Shown: positions 17,119 through 37,056 of the stretch, one piece after another | How positions within the stretch are numbered: position 1 is the stretch's first letter | Layout: every line of letters begins with the position of its first letter | NCBI RefSeq assembly: GCF_025753855.1 | Contig: NZ_JAOWPT010000014.1 | Span: forward strand, 62,001 to 126,000 | Direction of reading: 5' to 3' | Length of the DNA stretch: 64,000 bases | DNA from: Mesorhizobium sp. ZC-5 | GTDB taxonomy: Bacteria > Pseudomonadota > Alphaproteobacteria > Rhizobiales > Rhizobiaceae | Program-made: the position numbers and the translations under genes | Notes under the pieces: model-generated | Database searches by the model: none | Told to the model about the DNA's origin: nothing | The model's input: only the letters and a program-made list of their open reading frames with translations

Positions 17119-17319
17119 ATGTCTGATAACAACAGGATCGAGCAGGACCACCGGCGCATCAAGCGCCGTGTGCGGCCGATGCTGGGTTTCAAGTCGCCGG
17201 CCACCGCCAGCACCCTGTCGGAGATCGAAATGCTTCACATGATGCGCAAGCGACAGGCGAGGTACGCGTTCAATCCAAATCCCTCCCTGGCCGAGCAGTT
17301 CGCCATACTGGCGGCATGA
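17119..17319 (+). pseudogene. IS6-family transposase, C-terminal remnant
   Basis: The 66-residue frame begins in the last third of an IS6-type DDE transposase: NNRIEQDHRRIKRRVRPMLG followed by a FKSPATASTLSEIEMLHMMRK stretch. The Glu in IEQDH is the catalytic E of the DDE triad. Everything upstream (zinc/HTH region and both catalytic Asp) is missing. The stop codon is 52 bases from the terminal inverted repeat at 17374, which fits IS6 elements. Confidence 0.85.
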
Positions 17320-17322
17320 CAG

Positions 17323-17374
17323 CGGCCTGTCCCGACCAACCTTCATGACACAGAAAAAACTTTGCAATACAACC
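17323..17374 (-). repeat. IS6-family terminal end (left boundary of cassette)
   Basis: Read on the minus strand, the outer end begins GGTTGTATTGCAAAG, the typical IS6 terminal repeat form (IS26 begins GGCACTGTTGCAAA). The 52 bases match 23788-23839 in inverted orientation with a single difference. The outer tip faces the cassette at 17375. Confidence 0.85.
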
Positions 17375-17574
17375 AACTCTTGTCGTCGTTTAGCCGCGCT
17401 TTTGAAAAGCCATCAACACGTCAGACTTCGCCCGAGCCGGACGACATCGGCGTCGTTTCGGTGACAAGGCTAATCAAAGACGAAGTCCACGATGCACTTC
17501 CTGGCTTGCCCGCATCCTCCGGCTGATTCTCGAAAAGTGGCTGCGGTGAACGCCCGAAAACTTTGATCGGTTAT

Positions 17575-19572
17575 TCAACGGCCTCCAGCGTCATGGCTTG
17601 CAGACAGACGGACTGGCTCGGCCATCCAGTCGCGGTCGAACCAGCTGAGCTTGGGAGCCTCTAGCCCCAGACTCCCTGCGATGGAGATGGCGAAATCAGG
17701 TACGACCGGGTATGTCGCGACACAGAGTCCGACGAGCGCGAAGGTCACCGCGCGGGCCGCAGTCCGGGCAAGCGCCTCCTTCACCTTCGGCGCAGCCGGA
17801 ACTTGCAGCACTGAACATGAATAGCGCTCAATTGCGTCGACGAACGCCTCGATTGCGCGTGTCAACTGACGTACGTCCGGGTAATCCGCTTCGAATCGCG
17901 CCCGCACTTCCGCGTTGAAGCGTGTGCAGTCCGCGAGGAACGCAATGTCGGTGGCTGACCACTGGCCAGGACACGGGAGCTCGTCTGTCGCGACCCGCCC
18001 GATGACCTCGTTAGCCTTCGCGACCGATCTCGACAGCCGTCCGTCCCAGAAGTCCCGTTTCCAGCTCTCGTAGGCACCCATGGAGAAGTCCTCGACAGAA
18101 CCGTCCGGACGACACCGACACAAGTAGAAGCGAAGCGGCTCGGCAGTTTCTTCCGCAGCGATGTCGTTCACCCAGATTGCGTGATTTCGTGATGTTGAGA
18201 ACTTCTTCCCCTCAAGCGTGAGCATCTGGTTGACGAAAATCCGTCGGGGGAGCATCTCATGGAGATCAAGCGCCGAAAGTACCCCGGGAATAACCAACAG
18301 ACGTCCGAAGGCGTTGTCCGCCCCGAAGAGAATGTCCAGCTCCGGCATCTCGTCCCGTGGGATTTGGTACCAGAAGGCGGGGCATCCGCTCTTTTCTCTT
18401 ATCGTTTCTAAGGCGAGCAAGTGCCGAGGCACGTGTTCCATGGTGATGGTAAACCGCTGGCACTCAAATCCTGGGATTGGAATCCGAATTCCCTCCCGGT
18501 TTGGGTTTGAGATGCAGACTGCCGGAAGCCCCCGGGACAGCCAGGACTCGACATAGAGCTTTGCGTAAATGGGCAGGAAGTTCCGCGAGGCGAAGGATTC
18601 GAGTGCGTCATGCAATGGAGCGAGGTTCAGGAAAAGGCGCTTCAGGGGACGACGTTCCAGCGAGCGCCCGTCGAGATCGACCGGATCCTGGAGTTCGGCA
18701 TCGAGGACCAGCGCGCCGCAATCCTCGCATTCGTGGCCGGAGGAATAGCCGCCGCAATATGGACATTTGCCGTGGACGAAGGCGTCCACCTTGAAGCGCC
18801 CACTTTGGACGTCATACGGGACCAAATGCTCTCTTTCAGCGATCAGGCCCTTGCTGCAAAGTCGCTTAAAGACCTCGAGAACGACCGCCTTGCCGCGGCG
18901 GTCAGGCTTTGTCCCAAGGAAAATATCCGAAACTGCATTGAGCCGATGCAGAGCCTCCTGGAAAGAAGCCGTGTTTTTCTCGGCCAGCTGGTAGTATTCC
19001 AGTCCAGCAGCGTCGGCCGCAATTGCAATGTGCTCAAGGTGACCGTGCGTGCCCTGCAGCACGAAAACCTCTCGGCCGCCGGTCTCGGCAATTCGGCGCA
19101 ACACATCCGCGTAGAGGAACGGTCCTGAGGCATGACCTATATGCATGTTCCCATTCGGGGTAAGCATTGCGGGCACCAGCAGCAGCGGTCTGCTCTTTCC
19201 TATCGCTTCGTTCGTGGAAGTCGCCTCTTCGAAGGCTGCGCGGCTGTGCCACCACACTGTCTGCATGACTGCACCGCTGTCCAAAGCCTCAATCCTGTGC
19301 CTGCTCAGCGGGTCCATCCGAATGCTCTCTCCGCCAAGCAGCAGGAACGTCTTTTCGTCTAGATGAATTCGAACGCCGCCAGAGATCACCGTCCAAAATT
19401 CGACTTCCGTATGGTTGTGACGGCAAGTGGTCGCGCCTGGACTGAGCTTCAATAGTCGGATGGAAACGTCGCCCCCTTCCGGGAAGGGATCATGCATGAC
19501 GATGCCCCCTTCAATCGAGATGGGGACCGCGCGTGTTTCATTTTTGAGATCTATTACTTGCGAACACATCAT
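17575..19572 (-). CDS. Cupin/methionyl-tRNA-synthetase-like didomain protein, probable hydrazine synthetase
   Basis: The 665-residue protein has an N-terminal cupin (about residues 30-115) with metal ligands in RHNHTEVEF (H52, H54, E58) and a later RHR (H92). It then has a MetRS-like catalytic domain: HIGH at 144-147, a four-Cys zinc knuckle (CPYC near 270 and CEDC near 282), and an altered KMSKS loop reading KKFSTSRN near 457. This architecture is known from enzymes that join N6-hydroxylysine to an amino acid through an N-N bond (s56-p1, triacsin and formycin/pyrazofurin type pathways). The lysine hydroxylase gene lies directly upstream; its TGA overlaps this ATG (ATGA), so they are translationally coupled. 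It is not the housekeeping MetRS: the cupin, the degenerate loop and the operon context argue against that. The amino acid partner is unknown. Confidence 0.85.
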   Translation of the reverse strand: MMCSQVIDLKNETRAVPISIEGGIVMHDPFPEGGDVSIRLLKLSPGATTCRHNHTEVEFWTVISGGVRIHLDEKTFLLLGGESIRMDPLSRHRIEALDSGAVMQTVWWHSRAAFEEATSTNEAIGKSRPLLLVPAMLTPNGNMHIGHASGPFLYADVLRRIAETGGREVFVLQGTHGHLEHIAIAADAAGLEYYQLAEKNTASFQEALHRLNAVSDIFLGTKPDRRGKAVVLEVFKRLCSKGLIAEREHLVPYDVQSGRFKVDAFVHGKCPYCGGYSSGHECEDCGALVLDAELQDPVDLDGRSLERRPLKRLFLNLAPLHDALESFASRNFLPIYAKLYVESWLSRGLPAVCISNPNREGIRIPIPGFECQRFTITMEHVPRHLLALETIREKSGCPAFWYQIPRDEMPELDILFGADNAFGRLLVIPGVLSALDLHEMLPRRIFVNQMLTLEGKKFSTSRNHAIWVNDIAAEETAEPLRFYLCRCRPDGSVEDFSMGAYESWKRDFWDGRLSRSVAKANEVIGRVATDELPCPGQWSATDIAFLADCTRFNAEVRARFEADYPDVRQLTRAIEAFVDAIERYSCSVLQVPAAPKVKEALARTAARAVTFALVGLCVATYPVVPDFAISIAGSLGLEAPKLSWFDRDWMAEPVRLSASHDAGGR

Positions 19573-20927
19573 TTCGTTTCCAGTCTCGAATTTCCGGTTG
19601 GCCGTGCCGCTGGCAAGGTCTCGGGGCGACCTTGAGCAGGTTGAAGCACGTGCCCGTCTTGCAGCGCCTTCGCCACCACCGCAGCCCGTTCGGCCAGACC
19701 GCCGAGTGTGTGCTCCGTTGGGCCCCGAAGGCCAAAAGAGTGGTTCAACAAGAAAACGCGAGGTCTCGGACCGGTGAAACACGATTCTGGCATCTGATCG
19801 AGTCCCACTTCGAAGGACTCATCGACAACGACGTCGCCATCTTCCATTCGCGGTTGCAGCAGTTGGAAAAATGATAGATGGCGACGGTTTGAAAAGCCCG
19901 TCGCGCATACCAGGAGGTCAATTTCAAGCGTCGTGGAGTCCGGCTTGCCTCCGATTCCGCGAAGGTCTAGACGAAGACCATTCTCGAGACGCTTTGCCGC
20001 CGTGATTTCAGTATACGGGAACAGCCTGAGCCTGTCGCGTCCGCACGCCTGGTCCTCGAATCGAAGATCGTAGATGCTTTTGAGGACGTCCTTGGTGACG
20101 GTGGAGAAGTTCGTGTTCCTAGTGTCGGAAAGAAAGCTCTTGCGATCTTCAAGTGGCAACTCCGCGAACTTCAGCGAGTGTGGATAAGTGTAGAAATCAT
20201 TTACGAACGGGTTGTCATCCGTCTGTTCGAAGAGGTGGCGCCGACCAACGACGATAACTTCCGACACTTCCCGGTGTTGGAGCAGGAATCTGACTATCTC
20301 GCCGGCGCTTTGCCCGGACCCGACGACCGCAACGCGAGCGTTAGCGTTGATTATTCCCTCGTTCGCATGGGATAGGAAGAAGTTTGAATGCACCACGCGG
20401 CCGGAGTCGACGGCCAGTTCTTCGGGGATGTATGGCTCATGCCCAAGGCTGACGACCACGTCGTCTGCCTCGATTTCTGAAACATCTCCGCTCGAGACAT
20501 CCCTGGTCGTGACGACAAGGGTTTGGGTTCCCGACGGCTTCTCGTGGAACCTGGCCGCCACCGCCTCCTTGCCGAAAGAAATCTTGTTCGCAAAGAACCG
20601 GCTTACCCAGACCAGATAGTCGGAAAACAGCTTCCTTGAAGGATACAGATTGTTCGTATGGATGAAGTGATAGAGAAGCTCCTTGTCACGCAGGAACGAG
20701 AAAAAAGTGAATGGGCTTGCCGGATTCCTCAGGAACGCCAGGTCCTTGAACAACGACACTTGGAGCATCGAATCCTCGAAGGCGATGCCCGGGTGCCATT
20801 CTGCGCTGTCGCGGCGCTCAAGGACTTCCAGCGAATCCAGAACTGAGGATCCCCGCTCCTTGAGGCAGGTCAGCAGTGCCAGGTTTGCTGGTCCGCTCCC
20901 CACGAGTAGTGTCTTTCGTCTTTGCAT
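19569..20927 (-). CDS. Lysine/ornithine N-hydroxylase (FAD, NADPH), probable lysine N6-hydroxylase
   Basis: The 452-residue protein belongs to the IucD/PvdA/SidA family. It has the FAD motif GSGPANLA at 10-17, the conserved WHPGIAFEDSMLQVS and RNPASPFTFFSFL blocks, the NADPH motif VVGSGQSAGE at 201-210, and a C-terminal ATGF followed by LNHSFGLRGPTEHTL. These enzymes hydroxylate the side-chain amino group, usually for siderophores. Here no siderophore synthetase is present; the next gene is the cupin/MetRS-like protein, so N6-hydroxylysine for hydrazine formation is the likely product. Its first 110 bases overlap the 3' end of the saccharopine dehydrogenase-like gene. Confidence 0.88.
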   Translation of the reverse strand: MQRRKTLLVGSGPANLALLTCLKERGSSVLDSLEVLERRDSAEWHPGIAFEDSMLQVSLFKDLAFLRNPASPFTFFSFLRDKELLYHFIHTNNLYPSRKLFSDYLVWVSRFFANKISFGKEAVAARFHEKPSGTQTLVVTTRDVSSGDVSEIEADDVVVSLGHEPYIPEELAVDSGRVVHSNFFLSHANEGIINANARVAVVGSGQSAGEIVRFLLQHREVSEVIVVGRRHLFEQTDDNPFVNDFYTYPHSLKFAELPLEDRKSFLSDTRNTNFSTVTKDVLKSIYDLRFEDQACGRDRLRLFPYTEITAAKRLENGLRLDLRGIGGKPDSTTLEIDLLVCATGFSNRRHLSFFQLLQPRMEDGDVVVDESFEVGLDQMPESCFTGPRPRVFLLNHSFGLRGPTEHTLGGLAERAAVVAKALQDGHVLQPAQGRPETLPAARPTGNSRLETK

Positions 20928-22095
20928 GACCAGCTCCCAAAATTGTGCTTGTTTCCAACAGCCCGGTCGCGCGCTCGGCTAAGACAGCGATCCGGCTTCT
21001 CCTCAGTTGCTCGAGGGCCATCGCGGCAACATCGGCGAGCGCGGCTTTGCTGGGGTGTATGGGACCCCGCAACTGTTGACGCGTGACGCATTCCACGGCT
21101 GTGGCCACCGGAACTGCGGTGGCGATAGCCATGCTTGAGATGCCTCGCTCCTGAAGCTCGGAGCGCAGGATGCACGTCCAACGGCCAACCCGCCCTTGGC
21201 GATCCTCAATGGCGATGTCAAGGACGACCTGGTCGCCATCGTCATTTGGGTTCCGGCGACTTAAAAGCGCCTCCGTGACCTCCTTGACCTGCAGGCGCGC
21301 GCTCCCGATTTCGATCTCCTCGTCGGACAGCAGCCCGAGGCGATGCAACATCCGAACGCCATCCGCAAAGCCAGGCCACCGCACAGTCAACTGTCGAAGC
21401 GTTGGAATGCTAGGATGAGCGCCTGCAGCCGTCGACGAAACCATTGCATCATCGTATGCTTCGAGAAGGCCGACACCATCCACGAACAGCTGAGATACGC
21501 TTTCGAAGCGATTTCGCGTTACGGCTTGGCCGTCGATTCGAGCAAACGCGAGCCTCTGCTCTATGGGCAGCCGACGCCCAAAGGCGAGAGCATAGTTCAG
21601 CGGAGGTTCCGGAATTCTGGGAATCCCTCCGCAATGAGTTACTATGCTCTCTATGTCCTTTATTTCAGCCGCAACCAGCGAGACTAAAGATTCAACCAGT
21701 CCTGGTTCGAGACCCGCTCCCAAGACTACGGGCGGACCGTTAGGCGGTACCCGGAGAATGTCAAGATCCCCAGGGCTCGGCCTGCCGACGCAAATAATAG
21801 GGGTGTGTAGACCTGCCTCGTGCGTTTGGTGCAAAAGCTTGCCGACCAAAACTCGGGAATCTCTCCAAGACGTAGCCATGATCAGCGATCGGGCTTGAAC
21901 CGAGAGAGCGGATGGACCCAACGACACGTCGAAGCGGACGTTTGCGAGATTGCCCAGAAGCCGTTGCGCCACGGCAAGCGCAGAATGGCTCCTGTCAATC
22001 ACGACAACGAACGAGTCCGGCTGGTCCGCAAGTTGCAGCGCCACTGCCCGACCGACCGGCCCGGCTCCGATGACGACGTGTGATCTCTCGTGCAT
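20818..22095 (-). CDS. Saccharopine dehydrogenase-like oxidoreductase
   Basis: The 425-residue protein starts with a Rossmann fold (VVIGAGPVGRAVALQL) and continues with GAGLEPGLVESLV and GIPRIPEPPLNYALAF, all typical of saccharopine dehydrogenase or reductase. Saccharopine is lysine joined through N6 to a second amino acid carbon skeleton. The lysine-hydrazine adduct made by the next two genes has the same shape plus one N, so this enzyme may cleave it oxidatively to free a hydrazino acid and 2-aminoadipate semialdehyde. This is inference. In other described pathways a flavin oxidase does this step, and none is seen here. The last 37 codons overlap the next gene in another frame and look non-conserved, so a late frameshift is possible. 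Confidence 0.72.
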   Translation of the reverse strand: MHERSHVVIGAGPVGRAVALQLADQPDSFVVVIDRSHSALAVAQRLLGNLANVRFDVSLGPSALSVQARSLIMATSWRDSRVLVGKLLHQTHEAGLHTPIICVGRPSPGDLDILRVPPNGPPVVLGAGLEPGLVESLVSLVAAEIKDIESIVTHCGGIPRIPEPPLNYALAFGRRLPIEQRLAFARIDGQAVTRNRFESVSQLFVDGVGLLEAYDDAMVSSTAAGAHPSIPTLRQLTVRWPGFADGVRMLHRLGLLSDEEIEIGSARLQVKEVTEALLSRRNPNDDGDQVVLDIAIEDRQGRVGRWTCILRSELQERGISSMAIATAVPVATAVECVTRQQLRGPIHPSKAALADVAAMALEQLRRSRIAVLAERATGLLETSTILGAGHAKTKDTTRGERTSKPGTADLPQGAGILSSGFAGSP

Positions 22096-22106
22096 AGTGC
22101 CCTGCT

Positions 22107-23345
22107 TCAGCCTTTACTGCCAACTACGGTCGGGGTCGGCTTGCGCCGGATCGTGCGATAGCCAAGGAGAGCGATAGCCGTTTGCAGTAGAGCCAAGCCG
22201 GCAATCAACAGCGTCAGCGTGTCATATCCCAGATGGACTGAGACGAGCCCTGCGGCGAAGGGGAAGAAATACAGGCCAAGAAAATAGCAAAGGCTGAAGA
22301 TGATCTGCACCAAAGTCCGGGACTGCGGCGCAGTCACGCGGATGGCTTCTGCCTGTATCAGGGGATAGGATAGCCCATAAGTTATGCCGGTCGCCAGCGA
22401 TGCCATTGCGTAAATGACGGGGTGGCCCGGGGAGTAGTGAAAGCCGAGAAGCGAAACGACCATCCCGCCCAGAAGTAGCGGCAAGGTGCGGTCGGCCGCA
22501 CTGCGGATTACGCGCGGACCAATTGCAAATCTGGAGCCGACTGATCCTATGGCCCAAAAGCCAAAGAATATTTCGTACGGTAGACCTGAATTATTCGCAA
22601 ATGTAACCTGGAAGTTTATCAAGCTAGTGTAAATGCTTGCGGACAACAGTACAAGAACAAAAAACAGAGCAGATTTGCTGAAGAGGAGATCAAAAAGGTC
22701 GCGCGCAATCGAGGCGTTATTCGGAATATCGGCTTCGCCGATGTTCGCCGCATGTCGCGCTGCCCACGATGACAACGCTGCCCCTGCCGTCGCCGCGAGC
22801 ATTGCCAGAATGAACATATCCAGCGTGCCCAAGCCGGCGTACCGGGTAAGGAGACTGCTCAGCAGCGGTCCGCAGGTTAACCCTAAGGTGGAGAATGCAG
22901 AGTAGGCCATGAAGCTCGATGGCCGGTCTGCATCGCTTGAGAGGGCGGAAATGCATATCGAGCCGATAGTGAAGTGCAGCGCCCATCCGCCTGATTTCAG
23001 CATGTAGCTGAGGAAGTAGGGGAATGTCGCGCGCACCCCCGACAATTCGTTCAAGAGTACGGTCGCGCAGGCTGCTGCATAGAGAAGCCCGCCGATGGGT
23101 GCGAGCCTCCGCACACCAAACTGGCGTATCAGCGTAGGACTGATCAAAACTATTAATATAGCGACCGCCATGCCTGCTGCTGAGATCGAACCAAAAAAGA
23201 TCTCGTCGCGCCCAACAGACAACAGGTAGACTGGAAACAGCGCAAAAACGCCCATCGCGAAGGAAATCAGATATCGTTCAGCAATGAACATGCGCCTGTG
23301 CCACAAAAGGCGCCTATTATTGATCGAGATGCTGCGAACGTTCAT
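22107..23345 (-). CDS. MFS transporter, probable exporter of the hydrazine cassette
   Basis: The 412-residue protein has 12 predicted helices, a short loop with RQFGVRRL after helix 2 and a basic N-terminus (NNRRLLWHRR). It resembles drug- or sugar-efflux MFS members rather than the MHS type at 2205. It is the first gene of the four-gene operon, with only 11 bases before the next start, so it probably exports the product or imports a precursor. The gene is visibly more A/T-rich than those outside the IS ends, in line with horizontal transfer. Confidence 0.8.
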   Translation of the reverse strand: MNVRSISINNRRLLWHRRMFIAERYLISFAMGVFALFPVYLLSVGRDEIFFGSISAAGMAVAILIVLISPTLIRQFGVRRLAPIGGLLYAAACATVLLNELSGVRATFPYFLSYMLKSGGWALHFTIGSICISALSSDADRPSSFMAYSAFSTLGLTCGPLLSSLLTRYAGLGTLDMFILAMLAATAGAALSSWAARHAANIGEADIPNNASIARDLFDLLFSKSALFFVLVLLSASIYTSLINFQVTFANNSGLPYEIFFGFWAIGSVGSRFAIGPRVIRSAADRTLPLLLGGMVVSLLGFHYSPGHPVIYAMASLATGITYGLSYPLIQAEAIRVTAPQSRTLVQIIFSLCYFLGLYFFPFAAGLVSVHLGYDTLTLLIAGLALLQTAIALLGYRTIRRKPTPTVVGSKG

Positions 23346-23787
23346 TTTGTTATACCATGAAACTGTACTTTTCGTCGGTTAGGACGAAGATAAGTTATGT
23401 ATCCGAATATGATTCGCGGTTTTGATGTGACCATTGTCATGGTCGAAGGGATACGTTTCCTTAGATCGAGAGCCGTCCTTCGCCTGTTCATCGTGGCTAC
23501 CCGTGACACGAGTTATGGCCGGCAGCTGTTGCCCGCCCCGCAACGAAGGCTCTCAAGAGTCATGCCAGCTTGCTTGATTGAGCTGAGGAAGGAACTTTAT
23601 GGTTGCTTTTCAGTCGATTAGCCCGAAGCAAAGCAAGAGATCGACTGAAAATGGCCATATCGCGAACTCGACAAACCCAACAAACCCGACAAAAGATGTC
23701 GGATGGCGTTGTTGAGACTGCTCCGCTCTGACCTCGCCGGTGAGCCACGAACATCGTGCTGTGTCCAAATGGAGCCCGGAGTTGAGA
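23346..23787. other. Upstream region of the hydrazine operon, with a stem-loop
   Basis: No convincing gene is seen; a 74-codon plus-strand frame at 23397 has no recognisable features. The promoter of the minus-strand operon should lie near 23350-23450, where A/T-rich stretches occur, but I cannot fix the -35 and -10. The segment also contains the inverted repeat at 23607-23651 and a short tandem ACAAACCC pair at 23671-23687. Confidence 0.4.
23607..23651. repeat. Perfect 12-bp inverted repeat (TTTTCAGTCGAT / ATCGACTGAAAA)
   Basis: The arms are at 23607-23618 and 23640-23651 with a 21-base loop. The outer bases are T4 and A4, so the RNA from either strand ends with a U-run side. It could be a bidirectional terminator that insulates the cassette, or the end of a lost element. 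Confidence 0.5.
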
Positions 23788-23839
23788 GGGTTGTGTTGCA
23801 AAGTTTTTTCTGTGTCATGAAGGTTGGTCGGGACAGGCC
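23788..23839 (+). repeat. IS6-family terminal end (right boundary of cassette)
   Basis: The end begins GGTTGTGTTGCAAAG and is the inverted copy of 17323-17374 (51 of 52 bases identical). Only this tip of the IS remains; it joins IS110 coding sequence at about 23831-23840. Confidence 0.85.
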
Positions 23840-24834
23840 GTATGGGCACGAGTGTTGGCCGAGGCTGGACACGAAGTTCTCCTGATGCCGCCTGCCTATG
23901 TCAAACCATATGTGAAGCGCGGCAAGACAGATGCTGCCGATGCCGAAGCGATTTGCGAGGCCGTCACACGGCCGACCATGCGCTTCGTAGCGATCAAATC
24001 GGAAGACCAGCAGGCGGTTCTCATGCTTCATAAGGCGCGGGAACTCCTGGTGCGCCAGAAGACGATGCTCACCAATGCCATTCGCGCCCATCTTGCCGAG
24101 TTTGGCCTGGTTGCGGCGCAGGGACCGGGTGGATTGTCAGCCCTTCTGGCGGTGTTCGATGCTCATCGAGAGCAACTGCGCTCGATGGTCTGATCGCGCA
24201 AGCTGATCATATCGCGACCGAGATCGCCGCGCTGGAGGCCCGCATTCTCGAATGGCATCTCGGACACGCCGCCAGCAAACGCCTCGCGACGATCCCAGGC
24301 GTCGGACCACTCACAGCAAGCGCGATCGCTGCGAGCGTCCCCGACGCTTCACTGTTTCGTTCGGGCGACAGTTCGCCGCCTGGCTCGGCCTGACGCCGAG
24401 AGCTCATTCGAGCGGAGGCCATGAGCGTCTGATGGGCATCAGCAAACAGGGAGACGGCTATCTTCGCCGCCTGCTTGTCGTCGGCGCTGCAGCCGTGCTG
24501 CGATACGCTCGTCAGTCGACTGAAGCGAAGGTTTTTGGCAACGCAGCTTCTCGAGAGGAAGCGCCCGAAAGTCGTCGCGGTCACGCTGGCCAACAAGATG
24601 GCGCGGATCGCGTGGGCGCTTCTGCGCCGCAACGAGACCTACGTGGCGCCGACGGCACAAAGCGCCGGAAATCGCGCCACAAGCAGACATGCATGGATGC
24701 TGAGAGGAGATGACGAACCGGCAGTGCCGGGGATCGGGACACCCCTTGGGGTCAGAGCGCATCAAAAGCGCGCAAAATTGATTGGGAACCGATCCGCGGA
24801 CTTCATCTTGGCCAGCGAGGCGAGCCTCGCATGA
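23831..24834 (+). pseudogene. IS110-family transposase, 5'-truncated and frameshifted
   Basis: The first piece (23831-24193) contains LMPPAYVKPYVKRGKTDAAD, the DEDD-domain region typical of IS110. A TGA follows, the frame shifts, and ATIPGVGPLTASAIAASV (transposase_20 helix-hairpin) appears near 24280. A second shift gives FAAWLGLTPRAHSSGGHERL (about 24370) and a third gives KVVAVTLANKMARIAWALLR (about 24570). The N-terminal catalytic Asp is missing and at least three frameshifts are present, so it is dead. It abuts the IS6 tip, which suggests repeated insertion at the cassette border. Confidence 0.85.
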
Positions 24835-25077: not shown

Positions 25078-25521
25078 CTATTTTCGAATGACGGATGATA
25101 AAGCAAACGCCGTAAGGGTATCACGTACCCCTGGCAATTCGGAGATTTGCTGCCAGATTTGCCGAATACGGTCCGCGTCACCGGACTCCACCCGCACCAA
25201 AAGATCGAAGTCCCCGGTCATCACGTCACATGAAACAACCTCCGGAATACGCCGCAACGCGTGTATGACCTCGCCACCTCTCATCCGATCATGTCTATAA
25301 ACGAACATCATTGCGGTCGTGAGAGCTTCGCTGCTCAAACCTTCCCCGGACACGATTGTGTAGCCTTTGATGAAGCCTTCCCGCTCAAGTCGTTCGATGC
25401 GCACGCGAACAGCGTTACGCGACAAGTTGACTTGTCCGGACAATTCAGCATGCGATATGCGTGCGTTGTTCTTCAATTCGTTCAGGATTTTTTCATCGGT
25501 TCTATCAAGCAGGTATTTCAT
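25078..25521 (-). CDS. Lrp/AsnC-family transcriptional regulator
   Basis: The 147-residue protein has the AsnC HTH (LLDRTDEKILNELKNNAR, then LSRNAVRVRIERLEREGFI) and a C-terminal RAM domain with VMTGDFDLLVRV. Such regulators respond to amino acids. It is the last gene of the operon that encodes homoserine dehydrogenase and aspartase, and its start overlaps the preceding gene by 17 bases. Homoserine, aspartate or a related amino acid is the likely ligand. ATG 25521 is chosen over a start at 25536. Confidence 0.88.
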   Translation of the reverse strand: MKYLLDRTDEKILNELKNNARISHAELSGQVNLSRNAVRVRIERLEREGFIKGYTIVSGEGLSSEALTTAMMFVYRHDRMRGGEVIHALRRIPEVVSCDVMTGDFDLLVRVESGDADRIRQIWQQISELPGVRDTLTAFALSSVIRK

Positions 25522-26326
25522 GGGGATCCAAGCCAACCAGTCCTGATTGCATTATCCCGCTAGCCGATCGATATGCGTTTACAGCAATGTCAGGGAGATG
25601 CCTGTGATCTCCCTTTCTCCCATAGCACCTGGCTGTTGCCGCCATCACAAAGGCAGGTAGCGCATCTCGTTCAGCATCCGACAAACTTCTAACACTCTGG
25701 TATCCAGCCAGCAGTGCTTGAGCGTTGTCATTATCCAAGCCTCCGTTCGACCCGCCTGTCCAGTCAACAAGCACATCCGCAACTTCCGAAATGAGCGCAT
25801 CATCATGGCGGAGTCGAAAATTTATGATACCGCTGACCTTGTCATCGAGAAAGAAAACATTCTGATGGACCAGTGCTCCGTGAACCGGTCCTGTCGGCAG
25901 CTCATACGAAGATCTATTCGGATGGGGCTGCAAAATGGAGTGAATCCTTGCCATGGTCTGCCCTAGGCTGTGACACTTGCGCGTTACGGGATCAAACGTT
26001 GACGATCCAGGCACGAAACTCACGATCGCTACGAGTTTGCCAGCTGCTCGAGAGGTGGCATTTCCGTCGAGGCTTCGAATTGGCTTCGGACAAGGGACTC
26101 CGTTTTTGTGGAGCCTCTCCATGGTTTCAAATGCTCGTTCCAGATCTGACGGTTCGGCGCCATTTTCGAACAGGGTGACGATAAGGTCATTTTCTTTGGA
26201 TCTGAAAAGATAGGTCGTCTCGCGGTCTCCATCAGCAATGCCGATGACAGATAACAACGATGTTATCCCGTACGCAGACGCAATAGCGTCGCGATCGCCG
26301 TCAGAGAGCTCTGTGAATACAGCCAT
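25505..26326 (-). CDS. Homoserine kinase (ThrB, APH fold)-like protein lacking catalytic residues
   Basis: The 273-residue protein follows the rhizobial ThrB pattern from its start (MAVFTELSDGD) through KNGVPCPKPI and GYQSVRSLSDAERDALP. However, the catalytic loop, usually HADLFPDNVFF, reads HGALVHQNVFF, so the catalytic Asp is replaced by Ala. The metal-binding motif, usually GLIDFYF, reads GIINFRL, with Asp changed to Asn. It is therefore probably a pseudokinase. In a homoserine-degradation operon it might bind homoserine as a sensor or regulatory partner. The start at 26326 is preferred because it matches the family N-terminus. Confidence 0.78.
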   Translation of the reverse strand: MAVFTELSDGDRDAIASAYGITSLLSVIGIADGDRETTYLFRSKENDLIVTLFENGAEPSDLERAFETMERLHKNGVPCPKPIRSLDGNATSRAAGKLVAIVSFVPGSSTFDPVTRKCHSLGQTMARIHSILQPHPNRSSYELPTGPVHGALVHQNVFFLDDKVSGIINFRLRHDDALISEVADVLVDWTGGSNGGLDNDNAQALLAGYQSVRSLSDAERDALPAFVMAATARCYGRKGDHRHLPDIAVNAYRSASGIMQSGLVGLDPHEIPA

Positions 26327-26343
26327 AACCCTTGCCGCCAATC

Positions 26344-27753
26344 TTAGGAATTATTCGGTGATTTGGAGGGGCAATCAGAGATGCCGAATATCCGAACAAT
26401 CTGGTCTTGAGATAAGATACCCTCTTCTTCTACGACTTGCCGAAGTGGTTTCTTTTCCCCCAAAGCTCTCATTGAAAGAGCCGAAGCTTTACTATAACCA
26501 ATCAATGTCGCCAGTGGCGTAGCGAGAACGAGAGACTGATCGCAAAACGATTTGCATCGATCAACATCGACCTCGATTCCTTCTACGCAACGCTGCTTCA
26601 GAATTTTGATACCTCTTGTCAACATTCGCATGGATTGAAGAATGTTCAAAACTATGACGGGCTCCATCGCGTTCAGCTGCAACTGGCCTGCGCTCGCCGC
26701 GAGCGTCACCGTCAAATCATTGCCTATCACCTGGAACCCAATCTGGTTCATCATCTCAGGGATGACCGGATTGATTTTTCCCGGCATTATGGACGAACCA
26801 GCCTGTACGGCCGGCAGTCGGATCTCTCCGAAACCCGTGCGAGGGCCGCTGCTCAACAGACGCAAGTCGTTGCATATTTTTGAAAGCTTTACCGCGATTC
26901 GCTTCAAGGCGCCGGAGAAGGTAACGAAGGCTCCGGTGTCGGAAGTGGCTTCGACAAGGTTGCGAGCAGGCACCAAATCAAAGCCAGAAATTTGATTGAG
27001 ATGACTGCAGGCAAGGCCTGAAAAGCCAGGTGGAACATTGATGGAAGTGCCGATCGCCGATCCACCCAGGTTAACCTCCATCAGCAGCCTCGACGCTGAT
27101 TGTAAATGCACTATGTCTTCTTCCATCAGTTCCGCGAACGCATCAAACTCTTGGCCAACCGTCATAGGCACGGCGTCCTGAAGCTGTGTGCGACCAACTT
27201 TTGCGACTTGATCATACTGAGCTGCCTTCACTCGGAAGGCGTCTCGAATATTTACCTGCGACGCGATTAGTGCATCGCAGGCCCGCAAGATGGTTAGGCG
27301 TATTGCCGTTGGGTAAACGTCATTGGTCGACTGCGACAAGTTGACGTCGTCATTGGGATGGAGTGTGACATAGTCTCCCACTGCCCGCCCAAGCTTCAGG
27401 AGAGCGAGGTTTGTTACGACCTCATTGACGTTCATGTTGGTGGAAGTCCCGGCACCACCTTGCATCATGTCGACTGGGAAATTCTGATCGATGCCCTGCC
27501 GTTCTATCAGATCTTCACAAGCCTCGGAAATTGCCATTGCTTTTGATCTTGATATCAGCCCGAGATCCATATTGGCCAGCGCCGCTGCTTTCTTCACCAT
27601 GGCCATGGATTGTATGAGTTCGGGAAAGTCCTTCAGTTGTAGCCCTGAAACGTCAAAGTTCTCAGCTGCACGTGCGGTATGTACGCCATAGAGAACGTTA
27701 CTGGGAATGAGGAGCGGGCCGATAAGATCGGATTCAATACGTCCTGGAAGCAT
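26344..27753 (-). CDS. aspA: Aspartate ammonia-lyase
   Basis: The 469-residue protein has the fumarase/aspartase signature GSSIMPGKINPV, the substrate region GGAGTSTNMNVNEV and HPNDDVNLSQSTND. The start at 27753 is chosen because AGAGG is 6 bases upstream and the DapA stop lies only 10 bases before it. It converts aspartate to fumarate and ammonia. In this operon it would complete homoserine degradation after the homoserine and aldehyde dehydrogenases. Confidence 0.92.
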   Translation of the reverse strand: MLPGRIESDLIGPLLIPSNVLYGVHTARAAENFDVSGLQLKDFPELIQSMAMVKKAAALANMDLGLISRSKAMAISEACEDLIERQGIDQNFPVDMMQGGAGTSTNMNVNEVVTNLALLKLGRAVGDYVTLHPNDDVNLSQSTNDVYPTAIRLTILRACDALIASQVNIRDAFRVKAAQYDQVAKVGRTQLQDAVPMTVGQEFDAFAELMEEDIVHLQSASRLLMEVNLGGSAIGTSINVPPGFSGLACSHLNQISGFDLVPARNLVEATSDTGAFVTFSGALKRIAVKLSKICNDLRLLSSGPRTGFGEIRLPAVQAGSSIMPGKINPVIPEMMNQIGFQVIGNDLTVTLAASAGQLQLNAMEPVIVLNILQSMRMLTRGIKILKQRCVEGIEVDVDRCKSFCDQSLVLATPLATLIGYSKASALSMRALGEKKPLRQVVEEEGILSQDQIVRIFGISDCPSKSPNNS

Positions 27754-27763
27754 GTCTTGCCTC

Positions 27764-28642
27764 TTATCCGAGGATTCCAGCATGCAGCATGGCACGCTTG
27801 ATTTCATCCTGGACTGTCGGGCTGACAGCGACGAGCGGCAATCGAAGGTCTGCCTTCATCCGACCAAGAAGCTCCAACGCATATTTGGGACCAGCAGGAT
27901 TCGTTTCGAGGAAGAGCGCTCTGTGGAGCGGCATCAGCTGATCCTGCAACTTGAGCGCTGCTGCAAAATTACCGTCCAGACAGGCCTGCTGGAATAGAGC
28001 ACAAAGACGAGGTGCGACGTTTGCGCTCACCGAAATACATCCATGACCGCCGTGCGCCATATAGCCCAAGGCAGATCCGTCTTCACCCGACAATAAATTG
28101 AATTGCGGGCCGCACGCCATGCGCTCAAGCGAGGGACGCAATATGTTGCCCGTGGCGTCCTTAACCCCACAAACATTGCGACAGTTTTTGAATATTCGCG
28201 CCAGAGTTTCAACTTGGATGTCGACGACGCTGCGAGGCGGTATATTGTAAACTATGATCGGAAGTCTGCTGACAGCGTCAATCGCCTTGAAATGCTGGTA
28301 GATTCCCTCTTGAGTCGGCTTGTTGTAATAAGGAGAGACAATGAGCAGTGCATCGGCGCCTGCGTTTTGAGCATGGCGCACGAACTCCAGGGCTTCCTCT
28401 GTGCTATTGGAGCCGGCCCCTGCGATGACTGGTACACGACCGGCGGCGGCGTCTATGGTGATCTCCACCACCCTCTTGTGCTCGGCATGGGTAAGTGTTG
28501 GACTTTCTCCTGTCGTTCCACACGGTACCAGACCTGATGATCCTTCTGCAATTTGCCATTCAATGAAGTCGCGCAATGCAACGTCATCGACGTGGCCGTC
28601 CTTGAACGGTGTTACAAGCGCTGTGATAGAACCTTTGAACAT
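27764..28642 (-). CDS. dapA: 4-hydroxy-tetrahydrodipicolinate synthase (DapA)
   Basis: The 292-residue barrel has canonical motifs: [10 protein letters not shown] at the start, [11 protein letters not shown], the catalytic Tyr in VYNIPPRS and the Schiff-base Lys in [10 protein letters not shown]. It condenses aspartate semialdehyde with pyruvate. In this operon aspartate semialdehyde is the product of homoserine dehydrogenase, so it may draw off excess semialdehyde towards lysine or diaminopimelate. It is much more canonical than the paralogue at 15231. Confidence 0.9.
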
Positions 28643-28698
28643 CTACACTTTTCCCCTCAGGCAACAATTGCTGGCGGCTGCCAGTTGCAAGACGCCGG

Positions 28699-30114
28699 TT
28701 ATCGTTGCAGTCTGTTTATGCAAACGACCTTGGGTTGCGTCATTTCCTCATAGGCGAACCGAACGCCTTCTCGTCCCATGCTGCCATATTTAAAGCCGCC
28801 GAAGGGCATCGCGTCGAAACGATAGTCCGAAGAGTCGTTGATCATGACGCCAGATGCATCAATTCCGCTGGCGGCATCGAGGGCGTGGTCCAGATCGTTG
28901 GTGAATATTCCGGCATGGAGACTGTACTCGGGCTCGTTAGCCATCGCGATGGCATCCTTCAGCTCACCAAACGGTTGCAGGATGACAATCGGCGCAAACA
29001 CCTCTTCCGACCAGACAGCACATTGCGCGGGGACATTCTCCAGAACGGTAGGCGCGTAGAGATTCCCATGCCGGTGATGACCACAGAGCAAAGCGGCTCC
29101 CGCCGAGATTGCTTGATCGACCATTGCAGTGGCTCGCAAGATCGCTCCTTCTGAGATCATCGGGCCGATGTCGGTCGTTTGCTCAAGGGGATTTCCGGCC
29201 TTCAATCTTGCGGTCGCCTCGACGAACGTTGACCTGAACCGTTCATAGATGGCGTTCTGTACGAGAATTCTCTGCGTGCCTATGCAGTTTTGGCCAGCTG
29301 CCCAATAGGCCCCGGAAACGCAGGCGTCGACGGCTGCATCGAAATTGCAATTTTCCATCACGATCACGGGAGCGTTGCCGCCAAGGTCCATCGCAAGCTT
29401 CTTGATGCCCGCGGCCCGTGCGATCGCCTCGCCGGTGTTGAACCCACCGGTAAAAGATATCATGCGCACGTCGCGCGCAGAAACAAGCGCCTTACCAAGC
29501 TCCGGCCCACCGACGGCAACGGTCACGATCTCCTCAGGCAAGCCGCTCGCGATCAGGGTGTCGACCAGCTTGAGTGCGGAAAGTGGCGTGAGCTCTGACG
29601 GCTTCAAGAGCACGGCATTGCCTCCGGCGATGGCTGGGCCAAGTTTGTGGGCGACGAGGTTCAGCGGATCGTTATAGGGCGTAATGGCAGCGATAATGCC
29701 CAAAGGCTCCCGGGTATACCAGCCCTGGCGAGATTCCGATCCGAGGTAGGAGTCGAACGGTATGATCTCGCCCGCATTTCGTTTTGCTTCATCCGCCGAC
29801 AGTTTGAGAGTGTTGACGCACCGAGTTGCTTCCTTGCGGGCCTGCACGATGGTTTTCCCCGCTTCCCTCACGATGAGCAGCGAGAATTCTTCCAGGTTGG
29901 CCTGGATCGTCGCAGCTGCCCTTTCCAGGACGGCCGAGCGTTTGTATCGCGGCAGGGCTCTTGCGATCTGGGCTCCCCGCTTTGCCCGTTCCAAGAGCGA
30001 GCCCACGCTTCCAGCACTGGTCTGGCGCACTGTTCCAACGACGGCCCCGTCGAAGGGGCTTCTCACGATGATATCTTGAGCAAGGGTAATCTCGCTCAGG
30101 GCTGCACTGCGCAT
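28699..30114 (-). CDS. NAD(P)-dependent aldehyde dehydrogenase
   Basis: The 471-residue protein has [20 protein letters not shown], the cofactor motif [13 protein letters not shown], the catalytic Cys in [11 protein letters not shown] and the [15 protein letters not shown] region. The usual ELGG motif reads DLGGNAP, a form found in lactaldehyde and phosphonoacetaldehyde dehydrogenase relatives. The ATG overlaps the homoserine dehydrogenase stop by one base (TAATG) with GGAGG upstream. Position between homoserine dehydrogenase and aspartase makes aspartate semialdehyde to aspartate the most likely reaction. Confidence 0.85.
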
Positions 30115-31175
30115 TATGCAGCCTCCTTCGCTTCTCGCGACGGTTGAGTCGTGTGGATGGCAACAATATCGGACAGAAGGGCATACGCAGTCTCGACCCG
30201 TCCAGCGCCTGGTCCTGTTATCGTCACCGATCCAAGCAGCTCCGTGTTGAGTGAAACTGCGTTCGTTGCGCCTCCGACTCCTGCGAGCGGGTGCTCTAGA
30301 GCTAGTCTCTTGGGAGCAACACTGCCAACGACAATCCCATCTACACCACGAGCCGCGGATCCGATGAGCTTCCACCGGCAATTCTCCTTGGCAGCCGTTT
30401 CAATGTCGTGAGGAGACAATCTTGAGATGCCCTCGCAGGTGACATCCTCGGGCTTGAGGTTTGCCCCCAGCAACTCGTTTGCAAGGATCACGACTTTCAG
30501 TCGAACATCATGGCCCTCAACGTCCGCAGTTGGGTCGGCCTCAGCATATCCAAGGGCCTGCGCCTCTTTGACGGCAGAGGAGAAGTCCAACCCCCCCTCC
30601 ATGCGTCCCAAGACGAAATTCGAGGTGCCGTTGAGAATGCCCTCAAAGCCTTTCATTTCGGCGCCGGCCAGCGTTTTGTCCGCCAGTCGCATTACCGGAG
30701 TTCCGCTCATGACGGCGCCCTCATACTCGAAGCGCACGCCGCGAGATTTGGCCAGTGCCTTGAGCTCCTGGGCGGCAAGAGCTACCGGACCCTTGTTGGT
30801 CGTGACGACATGTTTGCCTGCTTGAAGCGCCCAACGGCAATGGCTGACGGCAGGCTCCCCATCTTTCGGGTTGGTGAACGTCGCTTCAACGACAATGTCT
30901 GCTGGCGCCAGCTTGATGACAGTTTCATTGTCAGCCTCAGAACTGCCGCCGGAAAGCTGCCCAAAGCCACCTTTGGTGAAATTGGCCTCAGTGAGCATCC
31001 GCGGGTCAAGCCCGTTGGGTGATATCACCGAGCCCAGGTAGAGATCACTGACGGCGACGATGTTTAACTGGAAGCCAAGCTGGCGCTCCCACTGCGGATT
31101 TTTTGTCGCGATAAGTCCTGCCAAGGCCCGGTTCACACCGCCAAAGCCAATAAGCGCAATATTGTAAACTGTCAT
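30114..31175 (-). CDS. Homoserine dehydrogenase
   Basis: The 353-residue protein has the N-terminal nucleotide fold [37 protein letters not shown] and [21 protein letters not shown], all conserved in homoserine dehydrogenase. It lacks the C-terminal ACT domain of biosynthetic enzymes, so it should be free of threonine feedback, which fits a catabolic role. GGAGGATC precedes ATG 31175; a longer frame to 31253 is not supported. It is the first gene of the six-gene operon. Confidence 0.9.
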
Positions 31176-31452
31176 GACGATCCTCCAAAGAATTGTGCGG
31201 GCATCATGCGGGTGCGGACCGCACAGTGGAAACGCCGCAATAGGACCAAACAACCGAGCACTTTGCTCATTTTGCCGCTATTTTGTTGGCGTTGCGACCA
31301 ATAGCCTTCCAGCCGCGGGAACCAATCGCCTCCGATTCGCCGGTGGGTGGTCGCCGGACCACCAAGGTCGGACCGCTGATGGCATATACTTGTGCCGGAG
31401 CCAGACGGCTCCCATGTTGGACCAGAGAGCAAGTCCGTGAAGACTCTGGCTC

Positions 31453-31581
31453 AGGAATGAGGTGGGGGCGCGGATGCTGCGGGATCATGAACAATTCACG
31501 GTGTGTTTTGCCCATTGATTTCGCCCGATCCATCAAGATCACCCGATCTGCTACCTGGCGGACAAACCGCACCTGATGGGA
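31453..31581 (-). pseudogene. Remnant of a polar amino acid ABC transporter ATPase
   Basis: The minus-strand frame contains SHQVRFVRQVADRVILMD followed by a segment ending ELFMIPQHPRPHLI. This is the region after the H-loop of GlnQ/HisP-type ATPases (usual form THExxFAREVADRVxFMD ... NPQHPRTxxFL). There is no Walker A or B upstream. The rest of the 31176-31661 interval holds no recognisable gene. Confidence 0.6.
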
Positions 31582-31661
31582 CACGGCTCGAAAGAGAAAC
31601 AGCGTGGCGGATCCGATAGCGGTATTCCTCATGGCCCCTGCCCCGGATGGGACTGTTCGTG

Positions 31662-32303
31662 CTAACTCTGGACGTCGATATCCGCGCGCGCAATCATGGC
31701 GTCGCCAATCAAAATATCGCCCTGGGCTTTCAGGCCAAGGCCAGCGCCGCGCATATCTGGGGCACCGTCATCTTGGCCCAACTTGGACTTGCCGGTCAGC
31801 CTGGTAACCTCGATCTCTATGCCGACGATCGCCTTCACCAACGCGTCAATGTAATCCCTTGGAGCATGCGTCATCTTCCATGGCGTCTCGCGCGTTGCCT
31901 CGTGAATACGCGTCAGGCGCGCTACGATAGCGCGGACATAGCGTTCGTCATCGCGGATCCTGATTTGCCCATAGGCGTGAGCAACCATGTAGTTCCAGGT
32001 GGGGACCTGCCGCTGCGTCTCATGCTTGGTCGGATACCAGGTCGGCGTGATGTAGGCGTCTGCGGCGCGAAATACGACCAGCACTTCATCGCCGTTCGCA
32101 GCATTCTGCCAGACGGGATTGGCGCGGGCGACGTGGCAATGAAGCACGCCTAACGTGCCTTGCTTGGTGTCAAGGAGAAAGGGGATGTGATTTGCATCCA
32201 TTTCACCTTTGCTATTGGTGAACAGGATGCCAAGGGGATTGCGCTCGATCAGGTCGTGAAGGACCTCAAGGCGCGACTCGTTGAAATGCGACGGCAAATA
32301 CAT
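31662..32303 (-). CDS. PaiB-family FMN-binding protein (second copy)
   Basis: The 213-residue protein starts MYLPSHFNES and shares ANHIPF, CHVARANPVW, WYPTKH and VPTWNYMVAHAYG with the copy at 16167. AAGGAGCGG stands just before the ATG. It follows a gamma-lyase-like gene at 32522 in the same direction, 218 bases downstream, and repeats the lyase/PaiB pairing of 13946-16802. Confidence 0.88.
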   Translation of the reverse strand: MYLPSHFNESRLEVLHDLIERNPLGILFTNSKGEMDANHIPFLLDTKQGTLGVLHCHVARANPVWQNAANGDEVLVVFRAADAYITPTWYPTKHETQRQVPTWNYMVAHAYGQIRIRDDERYVRAIVARLTRIHEATRETPWKMTHAPRDYIDALVKAIVGIEIEVTRLTGKSKLGQDDGAPDMRGAGLGLKAQGDILIGDAMIARADIDVQS

Positions 32304-32521
32304 GACCGCTCCTTTGATGCCTAGTGCTATCCCCAGCACCTTTTGCCTTGGCTCTGCGACAAATGTCTTGCCCTTCCCTGGGTCAGAACCGGCGAGTTGG
32401 CGAATTTCGCGCTGACATGCCAGAGACGTTCAGGGCACAAAATTCGCATCGGCTTGAAGATCGCCCAGGGCCAAGTAAATGCTCAATCAAGGAGCAATTT
32501 ACTCGGCAAGAGGGCCACCCC

Positions 32522-33742
32522 TTAGATGGGGTTGGATTTCTCAAACGTTGCGTCCAATGCATTGTTGATGTCGGCGATGAGATCGCGTGGGTCCTCAAGG
32601 CCGATCGACAGGCGCAGATGTCCATATTTTTGGAAGTTGGGCGGATATTTGTTGGAGCCGCCTCGTCCACCGCCGCCGACGTGAACGATCAGGCTCTCGT
32701 CATGCCCAAGCGAGACCGCGGAGGTGATCACCTTCAAATTGGCGACGAAACGATTTTGCGTGTCCGGATCGCCTTCCACCGCGAAAGCCATCATCGCGCC
32801 GTAGCCTTGGCCTGCGAATTGCTTTTGCGCCAACTCATGCTGGTCATGGCTCTCAAGGCCGGGGTAGGTCACATATGCGACACGCTTGTCGGTCGCCAGA
32901 TATTGGGCAACCGTTTCGGCCGAGGAGAACTGCTGCTTGAGGCGAAGCGGCAAGGTGACCGAGCCGCGCATGATCAGCCAGGCGTTGAAAGGCGAGATGG
33001 TTCCGCCGACATCCACCAGGGCGTCTGCCTTCACATGGTGGACGAGCTCCTTCGAGCCGATGACAACGCCGCCCATCGCATCGCCATGGCCGTTGATGTA
33101 TTTCGTCAATGAGTGGATCACGAGGTCCGCCCCCAACGCAAGCGGTCGAAAGAAAGGCGGAGGTGTGAAGGTCGAGTCCACTGTTAGAAGCGCGCCGGCT
33201 TCCTTGGCAATCGACACCAGCGTGGCGATATCAGCCACCTTCGTGGTCGGGTTGGCGATCGTCTCGGTATGGATCAACTTGGTGTTCGGCCGGATGGCGG
33301 CTCTCACTGCATCCATGTCGCCCATGTCCACAAAGGTTGCTTCGATCTGATAGCGTTGCGGCAGGAGTTCAGCGAACAGCCGCCAAACCGCTTCATAGGT
33401 GACATCGCCCACAACCACATGGTCGCCTGTCTTCAGGAAGGTGAAGAAAACGGCATGGAGGGCTGCAACCCCTGTTGCAAAGACTGCCGCATCCTCGCCT
33501 CCTTCGAGCGCCGCCAGCTTGCGCTGCAGGCCGATCTGGTTGTGACCCGAATTGCGGGTATAGGAGGGCGTTTCCGTATCCGACCAATCCATGGTCGATG
33601 GGTCTTCCGGAAGAAGATAGGAATTGGCCATGACGATCGGTGTTCGGATCGCGCCGGACGTCTTGTCGATTTCATTGCCGCCGTGCACCGACAGCGTATG
33701 GAAAGACAAGGTGGACAGCTGATGTTTATCGGGTCTGGACAT
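32522..33742 (-). CDS. Cys/Met-metabolism PLP enzyme (cystathionine gamma-synthase / methionine gamma-lyase type)
   Basis: The 406-residue protein has VHGGNEIDKTSGAIRTPI, ETIANPTTKVADI and the PLP-lysine motif HSLTKYINGHGDAMGG. It shares this motif with the enzyme at 13946 but differs elsewhere, including a GGGGRGGSNKYPPNF stretch near the C-terminus. It follows an ABC amino acid importer by 42 bases, so it probably acts on the imported amino acid, perhaps a homoserine ester or a sulfur amino acid. Confidence 0.85.
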   Translation of the reverse strand: MSRPDKHQLSTLSFHTLSVHGGNEIDKTSGAIRTPIVMANSYLLPEDPSTMDWSDTETPSYTRNSGHNQIGLQRKLAALEGGEDAAVFATGVAALHAVFFTFLKTGDHVVVGDVTYEAVWRLFAELLPQRYQIEATFVDMGDMDAVRAAIRPNTKLIHTETIANPTTKVADIATLVSIAKEAGALLTVDSTFTPPPFFRPLALGADLVIHSLTKYINGHGDAMGGVVIGSKELVHHVKADALVDVGGTISPFNAWLIMRGSVTLPLRLKQQFSSAETVAQYLATDKRVAYVTYPGLESHDQHELAQKQFAGQGYGAMMAFAVEGDPDTQNRFVANLKVITSAVSLGHDESLIVHVGGGGRGGSNKYPPNFQKYGHLRLSIGLEDPRDLIADINNALDATFEKSNPI

Positions 33743-33784
33743 TTGTGGCTCTTCGTTGCTGGAGTTTGAAACAGTAATTGTGAC

Positions 33785-34474: not shown

Positions 34475-34483
34475 TTTGGCCTC

Positions 34484-35206: not shown

Positions 35207-35281
35207 AGTGGAATCTTTCGAAACAGAGCTAGCGGACTTGCCGCGAAGGATGCTCGTCAGCAAATCCGCTAGATAAATGCA

Positions 35282-36043: not shown

Positions 36044-36079
36044 CTTAGTTCCCCTTTTTGAGAAGTTGGGTGGTGGTGA

Positions 36080-36862: not shown

Positions 36863-37056
36863 TCTGATCTCCATCAGGCTCGTCATGGCTTTTCGGTGCT
36901 CATGCAGGCAACGCTCCGCAATCGCTGCGTTGCCGCAGCAAACGTCACCCTTGTGCAGTTAGTCGCAGGAGAGGAAGGCTACTCAAATCTGGCCGTTTGG
37001 CCGCGGCAGGGAGCCCGCGAACCGAGTGCCGTTATCTGGTCGCCACAGATTGTTGT

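Follow-up and report, generated by a model that had tools for sequence, protein, structure and literature searches.

In the pyrazomycin pathway of Streptomyces candidus, PyrL, PyrM and PyrN comprise a saccharopine dehydrogenase-like protein (SDH), a lysine N6-hydroxylase and a didomain protein with a cupin and a methionyl-tRNA synthetase (MetRS)-like part. N6-hydroxylysine is first turned into an aminoacyl ester by the MetRS-like part of PyrN, the zinc cupin then rearranges this ester to a nitrogen-nitrogen (N-N) bond without tRNA, and the route leads to a Lys-Glu hydrazine and then, as proposed, to 2-hydrazinoglutarate (PMC8664883). The same source shows glutamate use in vivo for the RHS1 cluster of Rhodococcus jostii RHA1, since the strain produced Lys-Glu hydrazine, that is, glutamate coupled to N6-hydroxylysine, when overexpressing its own genes. 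The Spb38-40 and Tri26-28 proteins of hydrazinoacetic acid formation likewise include a hydroxylase and a cupin/MetRS synthetase. The hydrazine synthetases characterized in detail in a review used here belong mostly to actinomycete clusters. Here we analyzed a stretch of 64,000 nucleotides from Mesorhizobium sp. ZC-5 (the window; bases 62001-126000 of contig C14 in a 6.34-Mb draft genome), which contains a four-gene operon of this kind. The operon would encode a further route of the PyrL/PyrM/PyrN kind and is not novel in its chemistry, whereas its nodulation setting looks new.

The four genes are codirectional on the minus strand (from 23345 to 17575) and encode a major facilitator superfamily (MFS) transporter, the SDH, a lysine/ornithine N-monooxygenase (NMO) and the cupin/MetRS didomain protein, here called HS for hydrazine synthetase (Table 1). 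The MFS and SDH genes are separated by 11 nt; the overlap is 110 nt between SDH and NMO and 4 nt (ATGA) between NMO and HS, an arrangement that resembles a coupled operon. Open reading frames (ORFs) and Pfam support for each gene confirmed the content, order and place of the operon given in an initial annotation of the sequence. The HS length of 665 residues given there was also correct, counted from the ATG at 19572, which overlaps the NMO stop; the Pfam scan of HS used the longest-ORF form of 735 amino acids. The best solved-structure matches of NMO were KtzI and the lysine N6-monooxygenase MbtG. The transporter is the only gene besides SDH, NMO and HS, and tailoring genes are absent. No flavin adenine dinucleotide (FAD) oxidase of the DadA/Spb39 kind was found in the operon, and the annotation of pM0123d, a Mesorhizobium amorphae plasmid described below, shows none over the 42 kb around the operon.

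The operon differs from its closest relatives mainly in its surroundings. PyrL, PyrM and PyrN feed a C-nucleoside cluster, whereas the window operon adds the MFS gene only; a Streptomyces locus (L148, genome G697) stood in for the PyrN sequence in this comparison. L148 encodes SDH, NMO and a didomain synthetase in the same order as the window, but has aminotransferase, ATP-grasp, PfkB and Rieske genes around it. Its synthetase was the best-scoring reference against HS (31% identity over 632 amino acids, 288 bits), followed by that of L019 (282 bits). The RHS1 cluster of R. jostii RHA1 / DK176 (L022, L023) shares SDH, hydroxylase, zinc cupin and MetRS-like components with the window and has an MFS gene nearby, but its cupin and MetRS parts are encoded separately, and genes for lysine 2,3-aminomutase, ATP-grasp and AMP-binding proteins occur in its surroundings. 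The Spb38-40 and Tri26-28 systems differ from the window in using glycine as the partner and an FAD oxidase for release.

By sequence, HS is a hydrazine synthetase and not a housekeeping MetRS. The Cupin_2 and tRNA-synt_1g domains occur together in one ORF. The cupin zinc positions H52, H54, E58 and H92 aligned one to one with D63, H65, E69 and H103 of RHS1, for which alanine variants at the zinc positions were inactive (PMC8664883). The ATP-site lysine is K457 in a KFST motif; its counterpart in PyrN is K458 (same source), the two being matched by motif and not by direct alignment.

The partner amino acid was approached with a tree of the MetRS-like domain. Of 37 listed rows, two (L024, L037) had no trimming motif, leaving 35, and removal of four long-branch rows (L027, L149, L029, L108) left 31. 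In the 31-row tree, HS, M. atlanticum L044, Streptomyces L148 and two Rhodococcus enzymes formed a clade (support 100/99.7) against the 26 others, and each of the five is accompanied by a gene for such an SDH. An alignment that included three MetRS controls (L152-L154), used for column comparison and not for tree building, showed R383 and R424 in 5/5 clade rows and in 0/30 other synthetase rows; two more rows chosen as MetRS controls (L151, L155) proved to be wrong ORFs and were not counted. The Asp at the column of window H176 was absent from all five clade rows and kept in 29/30 others, the exception being L027. We take R424 to correspond to His301 of E. coli MetRS, and the lost Asp to Asp52 of the methionine pocket. 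The same arginine and Asp traits were seen in the closest solved chains, 9vq4 and 9l8v, which are deposited as methionine-tRNA ligase; no paper naming them was found in a literature search. The FAD-oxidase-linked rows, which represented Spb40 and Tri28, fell into other clades and do not have the arginines. The clade and the pocket arginines that HS shares with the glutamate-using RHS1 enzyme suggest that its partner is likely an acidic amino acid, with glutamate as the first candidate.

The gene content and order, the conservation, the catalytic residues, the clade membership and the link to nod genes were observed directly, and from these we consider it probable that a small alpha-hydrazino acid, with 2-hydrazinoglutarate as the likeliest candidate, is synthesized by the enzymes of the operon and probably exported. 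The predicted activities, substrates and transport direction would combine as follows. The flavin hydroxylase NMO would make N6-hydroxylysine, and the MetRS-like domain would adenylate an acidic amino acid, preferably glutamate, and transfer it onto the N6-hydroxyl oxygen, giving an unstable ester. The zinc cupin domain would rearrange this ester so that the alpha-nitrogen of the amino acid bonds to N6 of lysine. SDH would then oxidize the C6-N6 bond of lysine, water would split the product into allysine and the free hydrazino acid, and the MFS protein would presumably export the latter.

For SDH, the best solved-structure match was PH1688 (E 4e-11), and the L-glutamate-forming saccharopine dehydrogenase matched weakly (E 3e-4). 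Identities to the cluster-linked SDHs were 30% for Rhodococcus RHS1 (304 amino acids), 34% for Streptomyces L148 (353 amino acids) and 28% for Streptomyces L149, and two other SDH genes near an FAD-oxidase-linked synthetase in L031 were barely matched (E 0.004 and E 3). When 392 genomes of the genus Streptomyces were searched with the Rhodococcus SDH at E 1e-12, two places were found, both adjoining N-hydroxylase and cupin/MetRS genes; in the listed matches, four candidates were scored for each genome, and more distant members could therefore have escaped the search. The initial annotation had suggested that the dehydrogenase frees the product from its lysine carrier. This idea is not new, since PyrL was earlier proposed to free 2-hydrazinoglutarate in this way (PMC8664883), and the chemistry is thus known.

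A scan of genome contigs with HS gave 93 relatives, of which 80 loci were kept. Fourteen of these are from Mesorhizobium, with HS 87-100% identical, whereas the best segments of the other 66 were at most 33% identical. An SDH was present in the covered flanks of only two of the 66, both from Rhodococcus (L066, L070). Between the two Mesorhizobium clades, the ratio of nonsynonymous to synonymous substitution rates (dN/dS) was 0.19-0.22 for HS, 0.18-0.21 for NMO, 0.15-0.19 for MFS and 0.33-0.42 for SDH, and the operon genes are under purifying selection at this distance. Thus, based on the recurrence in 14 Mesorhizobium contigs and the dN/dS between clades, the operon is not a chance assembly. 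All four genes are open in two further loci (L133, L134). Among 395 sampled genomes of the window's family, eight had an HS match at 1e-25, and the window type was found in the window genome only. The 735-residue query also matched 187 Escherichia plasmid records at 1e-5.

The operon is physically linked to nodulation genes, a link absent from the initial annotation. A 9-kb part of the window is 99.4% identical to pM0123d of M. amorphae CCNWGS0123, which is one of the 14 Mesorhizobium contigs (L040) and is called the symbiotic plasmid of that strain in PMC6145117. The window genome was placed in a genus of three genomes, apart from the M. amorphae genus of 146 genomes; the identity despite this separation points to a possible recent transfer of symbiosis DNA between genera. 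On the contig of the window, nodA is located at 57148-57732, 21.8 kb from HS. We analyzed the 146 genomes of the M. amorphae genus for co-occurrence, with 40 genomes matching HS at 1e-25 and 101 matching nodA at 1e-60. nodA was present in 40/40 genomes with an HS match as compared to 61/106 without (Fisher 3.0e-8), and in 16/16 genomes with the window type as compared to 85/130 others (Fisher 0.0029). Both tests are uncorrected for relatedness and the genes share mobile regions, so the co-occurrence is evidence of co-location and not of function. In 12 of the 16 genomes, the window type and nodA are on one contig (6-159 kb apart), as they are on the contig of the window, and the two are on separate draft contigs in the remaining four.

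The link is closest in the sister clade of eight genomes, in which nod genes converge on the operon in 7/7 loci read (L044, L045, L047-L051). NCBIfam or Pfam matches in L125, which overlaps L051, identified these as a sulfotransferase gene and the genes for NodJ, NodI, NodS, NodC, NodB and NodA; the short contig of L047 ends after nodS. The gap between HS and the sulfotransferase gene is 0.2 kb in two of the seven loci and 2.7-2.9 kb in five. In the eighth genome (G320), nodA is located 15.6 kb away, the intervening stretch having been read in part. No paper on a hydrazine operon in a nodulation region was found in our search, which covered mostly open-access texts without the supplements, where published sequence networks lie.

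Other hydrazine loci were found in the same group of bacteria. The window genome itself contains a second locus on another contig (L024, C16:74112-77762), with genes for MFS, NMO, a PhyH-family protein, a cupin and a MetRS-like protein, PhyH taking the place of SDH. Matches of 25-28% identity to HS, mostly starting in the cupin part, were present in 28 of the 146 genomes, four of which also have the window type, and this other type is on the nodA contig in 16/28 genomes (19-214 kb apart). In M. amorphae, a match in this range lies 417 kb from nodA, on the plasmid contig that has both nodA and the first operon. We read nine of the 28 loci, as well as a similar plasmid locus (L018). Among the nine, NMO and PhyH genes were each seen in eight, a gene for 1-aminocyclopropane-1-carboxylate (ACC) deaminase in six (in pieces in one) and an FAD-oxidase-like ORF in two. 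In Table 2 of PMC11705231, Q8KGM6 (CAD31310) of M. japonicum R7A appears among the identified hydrazine synthetases, with Zhao et al. 2021 as the reference. It is another Mesorhizobium hydrazine synthetase, but probably of the other didomain type, resembling L018 and 25-28% identical to HS.

Other readings of the chemistry were weighed against the proposed synthesis of 2-hydrazinoglutarate. HS could be a duplicated housekeeping MetRS that became fused to a cupin and charges tRNA, and it does match the MetRS fold family at 3e-52. However, none of the nine NCBIfam aminoacyl-tRNA synthetase models listed reached its cut-off (bits/cut-off 174.8/553, 169.3/587, 146.9/551, 146.8/336.35 for TIGR00398 metG, 116.4/633 and 64.6/598), the motif reads KFSTSR and not KMSKS as in the three MetRS controls, a separate MetRS-family open frame is present on contig C5 of the same genome, and an NMO gene or its remnant precedes HS in 13 Mesorhizobium loci with an upstream flank. 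A housekeeping identity was rejected on the model cut-offs and the residues, and tRNA charging is hardly credible. In a tree of synthetases only, HS grouped with the SDH-linked members. Hence, the N-N bond formation suggested by the initial annotation is borne out as far as sequence reaches, with the MetRS cut-offs missed and the zinc positions and ATP-site lysine kept. Its reference to actinomycete pathways for the hydroxylase and cupin/MetRS pair was too narrow, since relatives also occur in Pseudomonas, Paraburkholderia, Bacillaceae, Acidobacteriota and rhizobial plasmids. Another reading is that SDH cuts the other C-N bond, so that the hydrazine stays on lysine (6-hydrazino-norleucine type) and 2-oxoglutarate is released. 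The cut site does vary between pathways, being C-alpha-N for Apy10 and C-epsilon-N for Spb39 (PMC11705231), but the C-terminal domain family of SDH and its weak structure match are of the glutamate-forming kind, and the product proposed for PyrL is 2-hydrazinoglutarate (PMC8664883); we regard lysine-side retention as quite improbable. The same machinery could also use another partner, either aspartate, which would give hydrazinosuccinate, or a different residue. The partners reported for published synthetases are Gly, Ala, Ser, Glu and Tyr, the residues near R383 differ (VPRH as compared to APRY or AARY), and the MetRS-like identity of HS to the Rhodococcus enzyme is only 31%, so that a transfer of the substrate is not safe. 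Set against the clade and the two arginines shared with a glutamate-using enzyme, a different partner seems unlikely. This low identity is one of several observations that weigh against the proposed synthesis of 2-hydrazinoglutarate by the operon. In the 35-row tree, HS was placed in a six-row set (95/100) that includes L027, a long row without the arginines, while L149 fell elsewhere. L149 of Streptomyces has the same SDH-NMO pair with a divergent MetRS-like protein that lies outside the clade, lacks the arginines and retains the Asp. Among nearer relatives, dN/dS scatters on few changes, reaching 0.91 for MFS (0.48-0.91 against L038, L039 and L041-L043) and 0.71 for SDH. NMO is broken in three of the 13 whole-region loci (L041, L042, L043), and L050 has split HS and MFS genes, which may reflect decay or draft error. 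SDH, HS and MFS are still open in L041-L043, which have either lost the pathway or obtain N6-hydroxylysine elsewhere. L027 comes from a reduced 1.16-Mb genome of the same family (G094), with a divergent didomain synthetase, a hydroxylase-like gene and an SDH-like stretch over two frames.

As a four-gene version that lacks tailoring genes, lies near nod genes and evolves under purifying selection, the operon suggests a small reactive metabolite in legume symbiosis and opens a short, testable route to this compound. The nodulation setting is the part that would surprise a specialist, and it is directly testable. We tentatively propose, as a possibility that we would not yet favor, that the operon is a nodulation accessory module, in which 2-hydrazinoglutarate, or an alpha-hydrazino acid close to it, would be exported by rhizobia during infection and would block pyridoxal-phosphate enzymes in the host plant or in competing microbes; for this purpose, Mesorhizobium symbiosis regions would have acquired more than one type of hydrazine synthetase. 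Rhizobitoxine acts comparably by other chemistry. Alpha-hydrazino acids can strongly inhibit pyridoxal-phosphate enzymes, and such a product would be expected to act on them: for hydrazinosuccinate, the Ki against aspartate aminotransferase is two orders of magnitude below that of aminooxyacetate (PMC6285999). Similar inhibition by 2-hydrazinoglutarate was not found in our literature search. The operon could instead be ordinary cargo of the symbiosis region without a role in nodulation, such as an antibacterial or competition factor, and hitchhiking would then explain its link to nodA. Symbiosis regions carry much unrelated cargo. The inverted repeats that flank the operon, the adjoining canavanine-use genes and the lack of a nod box, tts box or good sigma54 site upstream (all described below) are in line with this explanation, as are the 85 of 101 nodA-bearing Mesorhizobium genomes without the window type. 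On the other hand, the second synthetase type is also on the nodA contig in 16 of its 28 genomes, and nod genes lie beside the operon in all seven sister-clade loci read. We consider the chances that the operon is such cargo to be about evenly balanced.

Table 1. Features of the hydrazine operon and its flanks (window positions).
Feature	Position	Strand	Basis and remarks
MFS transporter, 412 amino acids	22107..23345	-	ORF; Pfam MFS_1 3e-16; operon gene 1, likewise first in Mesorhizobium loci
SDH, hydrazine-synthetase-linked kind, 425 amino acids	20818..22095	-	Pfam Sacchrp_dh_C 9e-17; proposed hydrazino acid release
NMO, predicted lysine N6-hydroxylase (SidA/IucD/PvdA family), 452 amino acids	19569..20927	-	Pfam Lys_Orn_oxgnase 2e-77
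HS, cupin/MetRS-like didomain, 665 amino acids	17575..19572	-	Pfam Cupin_2 9e-8 and tRNA-synt_1g 3e-52
Upstream conserved block	23552..23651	-	Alignment of 14 upstream regions including the window
Left arm, 57-nt inverted repeat flanking the operon	17323..17379	.	Putative end of an IS6-family remnant
Right arm, same 57-nt repeat	23784..23840	.	95% complementary, 6404 nt from left arm

The conserved block upstream of the operon contains a 12-nt inverted repeat, identified by eye (23651-23640 and 23618-23607, with a 21-nt spacer), which is perfect in the window and varies in one arm in the sister clade. The block also holds the conserved TGGCATGACTCTTGAG at 23567-23552, which deviates from the sigma54 pattern at two positions and was not taken as a promoter. 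With consensus patterns, no sigma54 match (at most one mismatch), nod box or tts box was found upstream of the operon, and matches to these three patterns across the window were no more numerous than in shuffled sequences. Rfam gave no matches in the window at the gathering score.

Beside the left arm of the inverted repeat, positions 17128-17302 matched records annotated as IS6 family transposase, and Pfam found nothing in the 87-residue ORF at this stretch. The homology of L038 and L039 to the window ends exactly at 23840, the outer end of the right arm; at the other side it ends at 17053 and 17128, beyond the left repeat, with L038 close to its contig end.

The operon is adjoined by a likely canavanine-use cluster at 25078-37752 on the minus strand. 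It includes a B3/4-domain protein (37057-37752), an ATP-binding cassette transporter, a Cys/Met-type pyridoxal-phosphate enzyme (32522-33742) and a homoserine dehydrogenase, as well as an aldehyde dehydrogenase, a DHDPS-family protein, a fumarase/aspartase-like lyase, an APH-family kinase and an Lrp regulator. A B3/4 canavanyl-tRNA deacylase adjoins such operons in Pseudomonas and Rhizobium, as described in PMC10018355. A metabolic tie between the hydrazine operon and the canavanine genes was considered and set aside, since nothing but position speaks for it. Between the two, an IS110-type transposase remnant is located at 24252-24713 on the plus strand, and CCNWGS0123 has a 1032-bp IS110-family transposase gene in the corresponding interval.

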